Shown piece after piece: positions 33,041 through 58,265 of a DNA stretch of 64,000 bases (position 1 is its first letter; each line of letters starts with the position of its first letter). Source of the stretch: Onthophagus taurus (Eukaryota; Arthropoda; Insecta; Coleoptera; Scarabaeidae); the NCBI RefSeq assembly GCF_036711975.1, contig NC_091972.1, positions 1,369,001 through 1,433,000 of the forward strand, written 5' to 3'. A model generated the notes under the pieces. It ran no database searches, was not told the DNA's origin, and saw only the letters and a program-made list of their open reading frames with translations. The position numbers and the translations under genes are program-made.

Positions 33041-33330
33041 GTTATTAATGTCATATCAGCTCAAAACTAGTAAACATATATTGCATTGCCTTGGGCACAA
33101 GCAAACTCAGCTTAATGCGGCCCATACACGCGCAGGTAAGTGTTAGCACTTGCCTGCACAGGTCGTAACTCACGAGTAAGTGCGTAAGTGTAGGACCTAA
33201 AACTGAGAGCGAGTTCAGTTCCGGGCGCGGCTCGAAATAAATCAGATGAGGTTTGATTTTTCGTGCAAGTCCGAAGGTAAGTATGAATGTGTATGTTAAT
33301 TTATTCGAGTCAAGCATCAGTTTTCTCAAC

Positions 33331-34255
33331 ATGTCGCGAAATACATCAAAAAAATATGAGGAGGTTATGAGAGAGTTCATTGACATCTATAAAGAAAATG
33401 AATGTATATGGAAATTAAAATCTAAAGATTATACAAATAAAAGCTTAAAAGAAGAAGCTCACAAGAAATTAGTAGAAAAATTAACTGAAGTTGACTCAAA
33501 CGCAAAAAAAGAAGATGTTATAAAAAAAATAAATTCTTTACTTAGTTGCTTTAGAAAAGAATTTAAGAAAGTTACCGATTCAAAAAAATCTGGGTCTGGT
33601 TTTGAACAGGTATATAAGCCAAATCTTTGGTATTACGAGCTCTTATTGTTTTTAAAAGATCAAGAAATCCCAAGGGAATCGGTAGGATTTGATACACCAC
33701 ATTTTTTTGAGGACACTAGCGACGTAAGTTTTGTTTTTCGGTTATATGAAGGTGCTAATGTTTGTTTTTTTTTTAGGGTAAATCAGATGGGAATCGTGAT
33801 GATCCACAAACATCTAAGTCCGTATCTTCTTGCCATTCATCCAATATCTTCCGCTAAAAGAAGAAGAAATGCTAAAGAAAACGACAATACGGAATCGCTA
33901 ATAACATTAGTAACCGAAAAGCTTAAAAAAACCGAAGAAGACGAATTTGACATAATTGGCAAAAACGTTGCTGAAAAATTGAGGAAACTTCCTACTAATA
34001 TAAAGTTATTTTCAGAAAAAATAATAAACGATTGTCTTTTTGAGGCACAATTAGGCACCTTAAACAGGCATGCATATATAGAAATCCCACAACAAGCACA
34101 ATCATATATTTGTCCTAGCGAAAATTTTACATTAACGGTAACTCATTAGATTTTGAAATATTATATTAAAATTACACGATTTATCATTTCAGAATTTACA
34201 ACAGCAAAGACAAACCTCTGATGTAACTAATTATATAAATAATTTTCAAGGTTAA
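33331..34255 (+). CDS. Harbinger-encoded MADF DNA-binding protein, three exons
   Basis: Start ATG 33331 (MSRNTSKKYEE). Residues about 10-110 form a MADF (Myb/SANT-like) domain: FIDIYKENECIWKLKSKDY, then the second and third helices ending NLWYYELLLFL. Such proteins work with the nuclease in recognising Harbinger ends. Intron 1 starts at GTAAGT 33724. The first acceptor (AG 33776) gives a serine-rich linker but hits a stop at 33855; a later AG at 33786 keeps the frame open into AKRRRNAKENDN and the C-terminal helix region. A second intron, 34138-34192, is well supported: it removes a stop, and the last exon (NLQQQRQTSDV) ends at TAA 34255. Either the downstream acceptor is used or a 1-nt indel lies near 33850, so integrity is uncertain. 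Confidence 0.75.
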
Positions 34256-34565
34256 TACTCAAAGTGTTAAAGGTTTAGTACTTCTGTTTATTTGTTATTA
34301 TTAAACATTTTTTGTTACACAATATGTTACATTACATAAATAAAAGGAGTGTTTTTGTAAGTTTTTAAAAAATAAACCAATTTATTCATTACTCTTTGAT
34401 TTAATAAAAAAAATAGTAAACTATAAGCAAAAGTACTATCAGTACAATATTCTGGATGGGTTGCACCAACATTTTTAAGAAACATTTTTTATATTTTAAT
34501 TCAGTTCAAAAAGTTTACACACTTGACAAAGTAGGATTAATTTTATAAAAAGGGAATATTTATGT

Positions 34566-35849
34566 TTATTTTATAGCATTTTCTTGCCACGAAACTTTTC
34601 CATCAGTCATAAAATATTCCAAAACTGCATTCCTAACTTCTTTGCCTTGGTCCGAAGCATGCCTATTTTGTCCTCGTTTTAAATTTGTAAATCCATGTTC
34701 TTCTTCATAAATTAAGGCATCTTCAATATCAGTATAATTGGATCCCAAATAATCTTTGCTTTTTTGTCTAAGAAAATTATGAAGCGCGCAGGTTGCTAAT
34801 ACAACGGATTCGATATTTTTTATTTGCATGTTTATTTCTGTGTGATAAATTCTGAATCTACTAGCTAAAATGCCAAACGCATTTTCAACAACGTTCCTTG
34901 CACGCGAAAGACGATAATTGAATATTTTTTTAGGTGTTGAGAGATCTCTTTGGGCAAACGGTTTCAAAAAATCTGTTCGCAAAGAAAATGCCTCATCGCC
35001 AATAAAAACAAAAGGTAGCTTAATTGTGTTGTTTGCATTAACAAAAGATGAATTTGGAATATGTAAATTCTTGGATTTTAATTTCTCATAAAAAATTGTG
35101 TTTTCAATTACACCGCCATCTGACACACGTCCGTTTATACCAAAATTTATCAGGATAAATTGATAGTTACTATCAACAATAGCTAATAATACTGAACTGA
35201 AAAAGCCTTTATAATTAAAAAAATATGATCCACTATTAAGGCTTAACGATTCTGACATGTTTCCCATCAACTGCTCCTAAACAGTTTGGAAAATTCCACC
35301 TCCGTTTAAAACCTTCAGATATTATTCTCCAATCATTTTCACTCTGAGGAAACTACAAATGTACATGATTTGAAACAATATTTCAATTAATGATTATACT
35401 AAAACTACCTTTACATAGTCTTTTAAAACAATACAAATTGCTTTGCATGTTTCAGGAATTATCCGTCCCAATGCTTGTGCTGATATTATTGTTGTGAACT
35501 TCAGATCCTCATAACTTCTTCCTGTGGCTAAAAACCTGAGAGTGGCACTCAATCTCTCATGAGGTGTTATCGCTCTTCTCATTCTTGTGTCCTGATGTTT
35601 GATAAGAGGTGTTACTAAATTTAATAATTCAAGATAACTTTCTTCGTCCATTCTTAAATAATTTCTATAGTCGTCGGGCTGCAGTTTTAATTCAGTCAAT
35701 AAATTAACATGGGAAAATTTGTCACGTTTGGAAAGCCATGCTTTTGTCCACTTAGTACGTTTTGATATCTTTTTCATATTTTGTTTGTTTTTGATAGTAA
35801 TAAGCAAAAGACCAATTGCAATTAATATTGATTCCTCAGAAATCATCAT
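34566..35849 (-). pseudogene. HARBI1-like nuclease, one intron, one frameshift
   Basis: Exon 1 (35849-35409) has the N-terminal helical region with ERLSATLRFLATGRSYEDL. A 56-bp intron with GTAGTT..TTTGTAG (35353-35408) joins DYVK to FPQSENDWRIISEGF. Exon 2 reads RWNFPNCLGAVDGKH, holding the first catalytic Asp, but breaks near 35240, where about 2 nt are missing after IVKP. The frame resumes as LNSGSYFFNYKGFFSSVLLA, with the second Asp in GRVSDGGV and the Glu in RNVVENAFGIL. The catalytic residues remain, but the break prevents a full product. HARBI1-type nucleases cut element ends in cut-and-paste transposition. The domesticated cellular homologue has no such TIR context. Confidence 0.9.
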
Positions 35850-36033
35850 ATGAGAATATTTATGTATAACAAGTAAACCACACTACCACATTAAATCTTC
35901 TTCTAAACAATTCCATTAAAACTGAGAATCTGAAGTGAATAATGTATGGCGAAAACTCGCGTTCAGTTTTGCTCGAGAGCTTAACTGTGCGTATTTACTC
36001 GCGGACTTACCTGCGTGTGTATGGGCCGTATAA

Positions 36034-54344: not shown

Positions 54345-54562
54345 TGAAGATGAGCTAGTTTTAATTGTTATACAGTGCTAGACTGAGAACTAGAATCATT
54401 CGGGTTTAGCCGTCTTTAGAGACGTGCGGCTAAACCCAAATGATTCTAGTTCTAGGTATAGTGATAGTTCTACATAGTAACAGTGCTAGTGTAAAACTAA
54501 AACTGACACTAGACCTAGAACTAGAAAGTTGCGGGTTTAGCCGTGCGTCTGAAGACTTAATA
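54345..54562 (+). repeat. R1 dispersed repeat with 25-bp-arm hairpin
   Basis: GAACTAGAATCATTCGGGTT is continued by TAGCCG, an inverted repeat with 54427-54452 (one mismatch), around a 14-nt loop. A second, half hairpin follows at 54535-54553. The copy is cut at 54562 by Harbinger copy 2 and resumes at 58111. Confidence 0.75.
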
Positions 54563-54910
54563 GCTTTGTTTTGGTTCGGCAAATCTGTAGTTCCGAACGG
54601 TTCTGAACCATTCTGCGCATGCGTATTAATAGAAAAGGTGTTTTGGTTCGGGTAGAACTGGTTAAGAACTACTAAATTCTGTGTTTTGGTTCTAAAAACG
54701 TTCGTACTCAGGTAGTTCCGAATCGTTCGAACCGATTCCGAACCGTTCAAACAGTAACGGGGCAAAAGTGCGAACTCCTTTTCAGATCAGTAAGTGGAAG
54801 TGTTTTGTGAAAACAATTTTTCAAAAAATAATTTTTTTATATTTGGATGGTAAGTAGGTATCTGATAATTCAGCAAACGGATAAATAAAGCTTTTTTAAT
54901 TACTCCATAG

Positions 54911-56097
54911 ATGTCTGATTCCGAAATTTTTTTGCTATCTTCATCATCGTCTTCTTCTTCTTCTGATGAAGAAAGGATTTCAGTTTGCTTAAACGAAATT
55001 TTATATTCTCGTACAAAAAACGAAAATTATTTTGAAACGATTGTCCCTCAATATACGGACCAACAATATCTTGAACATTTTCGGATTTCAAAACATTTAA
55101 GTGCAAAATTGTCGACGGAGTTTGAAGCAAGCCACTACTATTCGAAATCTGATACTGGTTTCGATAGAATACCAGCCCAAAAATGCATTGCAATATTTTG
55201 CTGGTATGCTGGTCATGAAGCAGCTGGCTTTCGTGATGTTGCTGACCGATTTAATATTAGCATTAGTACACTGCACCAATTAATAGAAAAAGTTGTCTAT
55301 TTCCTAAGTTATAAATCACCATCCGTTATAAAATGGCCTAATGAAACTGAAAAGCGTGAAAATGAAAAACTCTTCAAAGAAAATGGGTTTTTCGGTGCTA
55401 TTGGGTGCATTGATGGTACTCACATTAAAATAGATAAGCAATCCGACGATCCCGATTCTTATTTAAATAGGAAGAAGTATTATTCCATTCAAGTAAGTTA
55501 ATTTCTTTTAGTATAATGTATATTTGGTGGTGTGAAAGAATGAAAGTAACGTTTTGATTCTAGGCACAAGTAGTATGTGATAGTACTAAAAGGATTATTG
55601 ACGTGTTTATTGGCTATCCTGGATCGGTGCATGATAGCAGAGTTTTTACAACATCACCTTTATACAACAATTTGGCTGAAAAATGTGGGGATTACTATAT
55701 ATTAGGTGACAGTGCATATCCTTGCCTAAAAAGTATAATGACACCATACAGGGATAATGGTCACTTAAATCCTACAGAAAAAAATTATAACTATAAATTT
55801 AGTCAATCCCGAATTAGGATAGAACATGTGTTTGGTATTGTAAAGCAGAAATTTCGCCAATTATACCATTTAAAGTTACAAAATATTAACACCATATGTC
55901 ATTTTATTCGGGCTTGTTTTGTGCTCTATAATTTAAGTTTGGATGATGACGTTAATATAGATGATGTCAATGAGGAATGTAATGGAAATGATAATATGAT
56001 CATGCACAATGAAGATGATGATGAAAATGAAGGAGACGACGCCGGAAAAAATTTCAGGAACTATATAGCTGCAGTTTTATACAATATTGGAGATTGA
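54911..56097 (+). CDS. HARBI1-like nuclease of Harbinger copy 2, intact
   Basis: Two exons, 54911-55492 and 55564-56097, joined across a 71-bp intron with GTAAGT..TTCTAG in phase 0; product about 371 residues, the usual HARBI1 length. The N-terminus is acidic and serine-rich (SSSSSSSSSDEER), then a helical HTH-like region (HEAAGFRDVADRFNIS). Catalytic residues visible: first Asp in GCIDGTHIKI, second in GSVHDSRVF, Glu in RIRIEHVFGIV. The C-terminus is acidic. No stop, frameshift or missing catalytic residue was seen. An AATAAA lies 108 bp after the stop. The enzyme would excise and insert the element with its SANT partner. Confidence 0.92.
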
Positions 56098-56205
56098 AAA
56101 AATATTGTGTACATTTTTGTAAAATTTTTTTGTACATGGTATTAATACAATTTTTTTTTATCTTTGTTTAACCTTTAAGGGCCAAGGTTTTCGTAAAACT
56201 TGTTG

Positions 56206-56211
56206 AATAAA
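56206..56211 (+). terminator. Polyadenylation signal of the nuclease gene
   Basis: AATAAA in TGTTGAATAAAAAAAAG, downstream of the Harbinger copy 2 nuclease stop codon at 56097. Confidence 0.6.
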
Positions 56212-56499
56212 AAAAAGATTTTAACTTTATTGGTTTTGTTTTATTGTTTTTGTTCCTTTTACTTAGAATTTGAAAAGTGATATTTGTTTTTTTTTCTTTT
56301 TTAGAAAAAAGAGTGGGTACTACATTTACATAAAGTCTTTTAACATAACGTTACCTGACATCCCTTTTTTTTTCTTAATAATGTAAGTACCTGCTCAGGT
56401 CATAAAAGTTAATCGTAACAAAGAAAAAGATATGTTTTTAAGGTTTGTTGGTTATAAACTAATATAAACCTTCTCCATTATTAACAGATCTTTATAAAA

Positions 56500-56874
56500 T
56501 GTGAGAAAAGTATTTAAAACAACTTTTTTTAGTTGCTTTATTAATTTATTTTCACGGCACCGGTTTCGAGTTTAATAAGATACTCATCATCAGCCGAATG
56601 TCAAAATTTAAAAGATATACACTAATGAAACAAAAACTTTATTTATTTTATTTATTTTATAATAAACTTGTCCATTTCAAGTTTTCAATACATTATTTGC
56701 AATTGTGTGGTGTTTATGAAAATGTTTTTGTTATATTTTTTAAATTTTGACATTCGGCTGATGATTCTTATTAAACTCGAAACCGGTACCGTGAAAATAA
56801 ATTAATAAAGCAAGTGTTTTAAATACTTTTCTCACATATTGTTATCTGAACTTGCAACATGGATTCAAACAATT
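56500..56874. mobile_element. 375-bp palindromic insertion with 14-bp target duplication
   Basis: Two arms of about 110 bp are inverted repeats beginning TGTGAGAAAAGTATTTAAAA; they contain ACCGGTTTCGAGTTTAATAA and CATCATCAGCCGAATGTC. A short single-copy tail (56836-56874) follows the right arm. The flanks carry AGATCTTTATAAAA on both sides (56486-56499 and 56875-56888), a 14-bp duplication typical of retrotransposition rather than cut-and-paste. It sits between the two Harbinger genes. On the minus reading the arms contain CTGATGA and GAAAC, discussed in the findings. Confidence 0.75.
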
Positions 56875-57086
56875 AGATCTTTATAAAACCGAAATTATAG
56901 TAAGGGAAAAAACTGAAGGGATTGTTAAAATAATAGATAAGTAAATAAATAATAGATAAGTAACATTTATACACATAAAAATAAATAATAAAAAATAATG
57001 TATTGTATACTAAAATATATAAAACAACATAAATACAGAAACATCTCCTACACTAAAATATATATAATCTACTAACTAAATTTAAA

Positions 57087-57858
57087 CTAATTTTTATTAT
57101 TTTTTTCTCTTTGAAGCGCCAAGTGTTCTTCCAGAATTTCTAATTTTCGTTGTCTATATATTTCTTTTGCTGCCATATACTCAATTTTTTTGTCATAGTA
57201 CGCTTTTAAGTCGTTTTTCATTTCAAGTAATATGTCATTTCTTTTTCTATAGGTAACTGTTGGTCTAGCTTTTCTTTTCTGTTTTGGTGTTTCGGGAATA
57301 CTTAACGTTACTGAATTAGGGTCAATTGGGGAACTGTGTTGAATTATTTGCGAGGTAGACGGTGTAATATTTATTATTCTTGATTCCTCGGTAGAGGTGG
57401 TTTCACTATGGGGGGCAGTATGTGATTGGGGAAAGGGTTCATTTAGTGGATACTCATTGGCAGCACTGAGTAAAACTTTTGGGTGTATAGATCTCTTCCT
57501 TCCTAGGACTTCGTGCATTTCATTTTCGAATTCAAAAATTTTACGCCCCCTACCAGTTTTACGATCATTATCAACTAATTTTTTGTAATTCCTTTCTAAA
57601 ACTTTCCACCGATTCTGACATTTTACGTCTGTAATAGTTACACCATTTGTACTAAGTTCATTTGCAATTACCACCCACATTTGGTTAATATTCTTTAAAT
57701 TTGAACTTGTACCAACTTTACTTCTATAAAGCCCATATAGTTTTATGAGCTCCCTTGTATTATTTACATTAAAAAAAAAATCTGAAAGGTATATTTTATT
57801 AATTAAGATTTTTTAATTAAAACGTTGCACCCTTACCTTTTTCACTTTCGCAACTCAT
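57087..57858 (-). CDS. Harbinger-encoded Myb/SANT-like DNA-binding protein, intact
   Basis: Exon 1 (57858-57837) encodes MSCESEK; a 55-bp intron (57782-57836, GTAAGG..TTTCAG) joins it to exon 2 (57781-57087), giving about 238 residues. The joined N-terminus (DFFFNVNNTRELIKLYGLYR) leads into a trihelical Myb/SANT-like domain with QMWVVIANELSTNG and CQNRWKVLERNYKKL. A low-complexity linker follows, then a helical, charged C-terminus (REKNNKN). Starting at the internal ATG 57680 would delete the first helix, so the spliced start is preferred. These proteins help Harbinger nucleases bind the ends. The gene is convergent with the nuclease gene in the same element. Confidence 0.85.
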
Positions 57859-58110
57859 TATAGAATAAGTATATTTGTTTTATTTAAAAATAAAATCAAA
57901 AAATAATAGGAAAAGAATTGAATTAACTTGTTTAAAAATTGCGGTGTTTTACTAACTACATCCACTCACGTTGTGTTACGCTCAAATTTAAGTTAAGAAA
58001 TCTGGTGCTTTTCGGTTAGTTCGATATCTGACCGCAAAACGGTTCAGAACCGTTCGGAACCGTTCGGAACCATCCGGAATCGACAACGAAAAAGTGAACC
58101 AAAACAGAGC

Positions 58111-58265
58111 TAATAACAATTAAAACTAGAACTAACACTAGACCTAAACGTCACCTTTTTCCAAGCAAAACTTTTCCTTTGCAAAACTACCCAATGCCTC
58201 TACTATTAAGCTATGTTACATTTTATGTGGAACAGTGCAGGTGCATAATAGTTTCGTAACTTATA
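58111..58265 (+). repeat. R1 dispersed repeat, right part
   Basis: Continues the R1 copy interrupted by Harbinger copy 2: AACTAGAACTAACACTAGAC, then the tail block GCAAAACTACCCAATGCCTC and GTTACATTTTATGTGG, as at 2260-2360. Confidence 0.75.

Follow-up and report, generated by a model that had tools for sequence, protein, structure and literature searches.

The element at positions 54562-58111 of the window (the whole 64,000-nucleotide stretch analysed, C7:1369001-1433000) is probably a complete two-gene PIF/Harbinger DNA transposon and the sole copy of its family found in this genome in which both genes are open. A nuclease gene and a convergent Myb/SANT gene lie between matching ends, and the same AAT duplication stands on either side. 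The element, copy A in the following, is a previously undescribed member of the established PIF/Harbinger kind, it is of the ordinary cut-and-paste type, and it changes no concept. At each end it extends one base beyond the span 54563-58110 given by an earlier sequence-only reading. The genome searched comprised 290.8 Mb on 33 contigs. The closest relative, copy B, is the locus L009 on contig C8. The features of copy A are as follows.

54559-54561, no strand: left target-site duplication AAT, identical to the AAT on the right
54562-54577, plus strand: left terminal inverted repeat (TIR) AGCTTTGTTTTGGTTC, same end in copy B
after the left TIR, to about 54748: GTTC/GAAC-rich subterminal repeats
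54911-55492, plus strand: nuclease exon 1, 194 codons, with D168
55493-55563, plus strand: nuclease intron, 71 nt, GTAAGT...CTAG, position shared with L011, L015, L016 and L017
55564-56097, plus strand: nuclease exon 2, 177 codons and stop, with D243 and E281
56496-56840, no strand: nested hairpin repeat between both genes, inverted arms of up to 48 nt
57087-57781, minus strand: exon 2 of the SANT/Myb gene
57782-57836, minus strand: intron of the SANT gene, 55 nt, GTAAGG...TTTCAG
57837-57858, minus strand: exon 1 of the SANT gene, 7 codons and one base (MSCESEK), conserved in copy B, L010, L011 and L013
58038-58079: 10-bp AACCGTTCGG repeats inward of the right TIR
58096-58111, minus strand: right TIR, reverse complement AGCTCTGTTTTGGTTC
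58112-58114, no strand: right target-site duplication AAT

The Harbinger identity, which had been proposed before, was verified by a DDE_Tnp_4 and a Myb_DNA-bind_4 domain, the matching TIRs and the 3-bp duplication. Both ends start with AGCTYTGTTTTGGTTC when read inwards, 15 of the 16 terminal bases of the two TIRs are identical, the same ends are found in copy B, and AAT flanks each end of copy A; the TIRs are intact, as had been stated. After removal of the introns, the nuclease exons join to a single open frame of 371 aa and the SANT exons to one of 238 aa, and the claim that both genes are open thus holds. The nuclease matched DDE_Tnp_4 over the whole profile (E=1.4e-39, positions 1-158 of 158), and its acidic triad was located at D168, D243 and E281. 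By the pattern of the family, these are the putative three catalytic residues that had been claimed to be present. The SANT protein matched Myb_DNA-bind_4 with E=2e-11. For the nuclease, a search of solved structures found nothing meaningful (best E 0.14); for the SANT protein it gave a weak match to GT-1 (E=0.012).

Both predicted introns have GT...AG ends at exactly the boundaries given before, and the gene models appear sound because both introns recur at the same positions in relatives. The nuclease intron occupies the corresponding position, bounded by GT..AG, in copy B and in four of six relatives compared; three of these four (L015-L017) have nuclease proteins that are only about half identical to that of copy A, yet they share the intron place. 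In L012 and L014, the remaining two relatives, a deletion or alteration affects the donor side. In the SANT gene, the 7-codon first exon and its intron are kept in all five sequences inspected (copies A and B, L010, L011 and L013), which supports the earlier view that this small exon is real.

Relatives were searched in the whole genome. With the complete element as DNA query, 64 matches were obtained (93 candidates, 40 scored), with the nuclease protein 116 (749 candidates, 110 scored), and with the SANT protein 36 (all 46 candidates scored). Near-identical copies, for which a search had been suggested, were not found among them. The sole near-complete relative seen was copy B, which is broken and 94% identical by BLAST with gaps; the substitutions alone amount to 3.5% (124 of 3512 sites). 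The remaining long DNA matches are fragments of at most 84% identity. At none of the six further fetched places of the family (L009-L014) are both genes open; the relative on contig C1 has an open SANT gene and a broken nuclease. Open nuclease frames occur in more distant subfamilies, e.g., 419 codons at C3:15828956-15830044 (42-49%), and an intact element from another subfamily may exist elsewhere in the genome.

Compared with copy A, copy B has two stops (codons 289 and 295) and four frame-shifting coding indels, and a third apparent stop, which adjoins a 10-bp insertion, may be an alignment artefact. Its SANT gene is interrupted by a 3.9-kb element with a DDE_1 (pogo-type) gene and TA on both sides. 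In total, seven disabling lesions are found in copy B and none in copy A. The B branch carries 33 of the 55 polarised changes, and on this basis the one-sided chance that all seven fall on B is 0.028. Nesting of DDE_1 (pogo-type) elements in Harbinger copies was seen at L080 (C5:10694900-10699300) as well as at L009.

The flanks of copy A, joined without the element (window about 54412-54561 and 58115-58264), match a partly palindromic repeat that is dispersed in the genome (258 matches; 2722 candidates, 40 scored). All 11 fetched relatives of this repeat (L060-L070), which are 82-84% identical, read straight through the insertion point and lack the element; unoccupied relatives, which had been named as a check, are thus present. 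The insertion base is not exactly resolvable, because these relatives differ at the joint. Some of the matches to the flank repeat are arranged in tandem on C5, with a step of 131 bp. The flanks of copies A and B have just two hits in common, of 17 bp (E 0.04) and 13 bp (E 0.14); they are unrelated, and therefore the two copies are separate insertions and not the result of a host duplication. PIF/Harbinger elements prefer TWA (TAA/TTA) targets. The duplication of copy A is read as AAT, and the local symmetry TTAAT...AATAA also permits the reading TAA with asymmetric ends. Among five end-pairs in related loci, a 3-bp match was seen in two (AAT and ATT), L039 has a match of 2 bp only, and L049 has none. 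Copy B, the ends of which match those of copy A, has no 3-bp duplication, and a perfect 7-bp AATAATT flanks both of its ends.

The hairpin repeat has arms of 48, 34 and 26 nt and further matches elsewhere in the genome. It is also present in copy B and partly in a fragment on C3, and the C1 relative lacks the region 56454-56879.

A dN/dS analysis between copies had also been suggested, and its outcome is divided. Between A and B the ratio is 0.37 for the nuclease and 0.31 for the SANT gene, which points to constraint, but the noncoding yardstick described below does not confirm it. Without polarisation, 25 of 64 coding changes are silent versus 20-25% expected (p=0.0003-0.011). Changes were then polarised by parsimony counts with relatives as outgroups, which left nine unpolarised (four replacement, five silent). 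The A branch has 12 silent changes, 10 replacement changes and no stop, the B branch has 8 silent changes, 23 replacement changes and 2 stops, and the ratio on the A branch differs from that on the B branch (p=0.044) and from expectation (p=0.0006-0.005). At sites where all outgroups present agree, the counts are 10:6 for A and 7:24 for B in a by-eye tally (p=0.011). As a neutral control, a Harbinger-derived family of 962 bp with an unconstrained frame was used (11 silent to 35 replacement or stop). Copy A differs from this family (p=0.016), copy B does not (p=1.0), and for the unpolarised A-B total the value is p=0.10. In the worst case, in which the four unpolarised replacement changes are assigned to A and the five silent changes to B, the values are p=0.44 for A versus B, 0.004-0.023 for A versus expectation and 0.068 for A versus the 962-bp family.

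The divergence between A and B is equal in coding sites (64 of 1823, 3.5%) and noncoding sites (60 of 1689, 3.6%). Per site, the A branch has 0.0071 replacement, 0.035 silent and 0.0074 noncoding changes (the latter 6 of 813 outgroup-covered sites; replacement versus noncoding p=1.0), and the B branch has 0.018, 0.023 and 0.021, respectively. The replacement rate of A equals its noncoding rate, so that the signal comes from too many silent changes and not from too few replacement changes. Given the distance of the outgroups (dS 0.18-1.1), wrongly polarised silent sites may inflate the silent count of A. The noncoding comparison thus weakens the case for clear-cut recent purifying selection on copy A, and such selection since the split from B is suggested by the substitution counts. 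Longer-term constraint on the family is better supported, because dN/dS between copy A and the C1 relative is 0.14 over 222 codons for the SANT gene, which is open in both, and 0.23 over 118 codons for the nuclease.

Judged from these sequence comparisons, the chance that copy A is still transposition-competent is about even; it had been put slightly higher and was lowered because of the noncoding yardstick. By analogy with studied relatives, the SANT protein would bind the terminal repeats and bring the DDE nuclease into the nucleus, and the nuclease would excise the element and reinsert it at an A/T-rich 3-bp target, which would then be duplicated. For Ping and Harbinger3_DR both proteins are described as required for transposition (PMC2836001). 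The Myb-like protein of Harbinger3 is reported to bind the TIRs and to be needed for the nuclear localisation of the nuclease, and mPing excision is reported to be mostly precise (PMC2836001, PMC9179366). Copy A shows no sign of multiplying, as no near-identical sister was found; continued jumping is possible and, because young sister copies were not found, unproven. A more specific proposal is that copy A is the sole surviving competent copy. One lineage would then move by cut-and-paste without net multiplication, the relatives left behind would decay, and the foreign hairpin repeat of 345 bp would have been a passenger through at least one move, because it occurs in both A and B, which lie at unrelated places, and in part in the C3 fragment, and is absent from the C1 relative. 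In this full form the proposal is tentative and rather unlikely.

Quite plausibly, although we would put it somewhat below an even chance, copy A is a retired Harbinger, silent or incompetent, in which the genes are open by chance after only a late loss of function. A single intact copy with no near-identical relative found fits this reading, as does the frequency of A-branch replacement changes, which per site is that of noncoding changes; the ten replacement changes include R300Q and G333C (a single outgroup vote each), and open frames are no proof of competence. However, provided that the polarising is right, 12 silent to 10 replacement changes do not look like neutral decay, and the lesions, all of which fall on B, also speak against retirement.

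Adoption by the host as a gene pair, as it has occurred with PIF/Harbinger proteins in flies, mosquitoes and moths, is very improbable. One single copy has both genes open, and co-domestication of both PIF genes is described as recurrent in insects; the domesticated pairs DPLG7/DPM7, APLG/APM and LPLG2/LPM2 consist of linked nuclease and MADF/Myb genes, as in copy A (PMC9710019). Unlike such pairs, copy A keeps both TIRs and the duplication, which the account of a lepidopteran co-domesticated pair reports as missing (PMC9710019), and its sister at another place decayed; moreover, in the comparison with copy B the coding part is no better preserved than the noncoding part. That copy A is a chimera of genes from two different elements can practically be dismissed, since copy B likewise has both genes, in this convergent order and between the same ends, the C1 relative has remnants of both, and nothing was found in favour of such an origin.

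Like copy A, zebrafish Harbinger3_DR and other fish Harbingers have a DDE nuclease gene and a Myb/SANT gene, short TIRs and a 3-bp duplication, and the division of labour between the two proteins of copy A may be likened to that of Harbinger3_DR (PMC2836001, PMC9179366). Copy A differs from the Harbinger branch in its nested hairpin repeat and may differ in the nuclease intron after codon 194 and the 7-codon SANT exon. The rice Ping/mPing system (Tourist) also has two required proteins, and as here its genome contains short elements whose ends are related (PMC2836001). The target duplication of copy A, if read as AAT, differs from the TAA/TTA of mPing (PMC2836001). Also unlike mPing, the related short elements mostly begin with AGG and not AGC, and their dependence on copy A is only putative. 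Among the 100 matches listed of 290 matches to the end pattern (control 93), 7 were AGC ends, and 6 of these belong to long copies of the family of copy A.

A second Harbinger is present in the window, termed copy 1.

33116-36030, no strand: element of a different Harbinger family, with a MADF gene on the plus strand, a frame-broken nuclease on the minus strand and the duplication TAA on both sides

Both elements are two-gene Harbingers with convergent genes. Copy 1 differs in its MADF second gene, the duplication TAA and the TIR TGCGGCCCATACAC, which is unlike the ends of copy A. The two nucleases are 25% identical over 145 aa, and the SANT protein of copy A did not match the compared part of the MADF protein (E 9.3; the lowest value against any piece of copy 1 was 2.1). 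On these grounds copy 1 was rejected as an inactive version of copy A. As had been noted, its nuclease is broken, with the frame break just past its GAVDGKH motif. Its proposed use as the inactive partner in an active/inactive comparison fails with its assignment to another family, and this comparison therefore belongs with copy B.

From sequence, the better candidate than copy A for recent Harbinger activity in this genome is the family of L078/L079. Five loci, including the query (C11:6459630, C11:10815000, C11:6572202, C6:29290454 and C6:31693554), are 99-100% identical over all 2827 bp compared, a length that is the overlap of two fetched copies and is not bounded by the ends of the family; a sixth locus is interrupted. 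The nuclease frames have 353-355 codons without stops and match DDE_Tnp_4 (E=4e-32), and the second gene has BESS and MADF domains.

The 962-bp family used as the neutral control (L074:299-1260, equal to C15:481098-482059) has the TIR AGGTTTGTTCGAGCAG. Thirteen of its copies, including the query, cover at least 922 of the 962 bp at 98-100% identity. In the three copies with both ends readable, a 3-bp match was read by eye (ATA, TAT and ATT). The family codes for only about 144 aa of the nuclease N-terminus, without the DDE part, 46% identical to residues 17-143 of the copy A nuclease, and its parent may be the locus C6:31718986-31720904, which matches at 97% over the last 135 bp. A role as a conserved repressor, for which the KP protein of the P element is the model (PMC7776569), was not supported, since no constraint on the N-terminal frame was detectable: the 14 copies examined had 33 replacement, 11 silent and 2 stop changes, as expected of an unconstrained frame, and in 4 of the 14 the start string is lost or the frame is cut short. 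The literature search found no paper that combines Harbinger, internal deletion, an N-terminal transposase fragment and a MITE.

The zebrafish Harbinger system that was used in human cells is described as rebuilt from consensus sequences (PMC2836001), and natural Harbingers with both genes open are therefore of use as candidates for a natural system. The life and death of Harbingers can be compared within this one genome, which has an intact family of low copy number, a young one at about 99% identity and the 962-bp derivative.

Two further observations were made in the same genome. Of the telomere repeats looked for, TTAGG in five repeats occurs at one site only, which is internal on C3, and TCAGG in five repeats at none. 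Two SANT-like loci on C6 with equal scores were rejected as recent transposon copies, because they lie inside a stretch that is identical over 4464 bp. These stretches, C6:31636000-31640500 and C6:31665000-31669500 (L072/L073), are 100% identical over that length and about 29 kb apart, and represent either a recent segmental duplication or an assembly duplicate.
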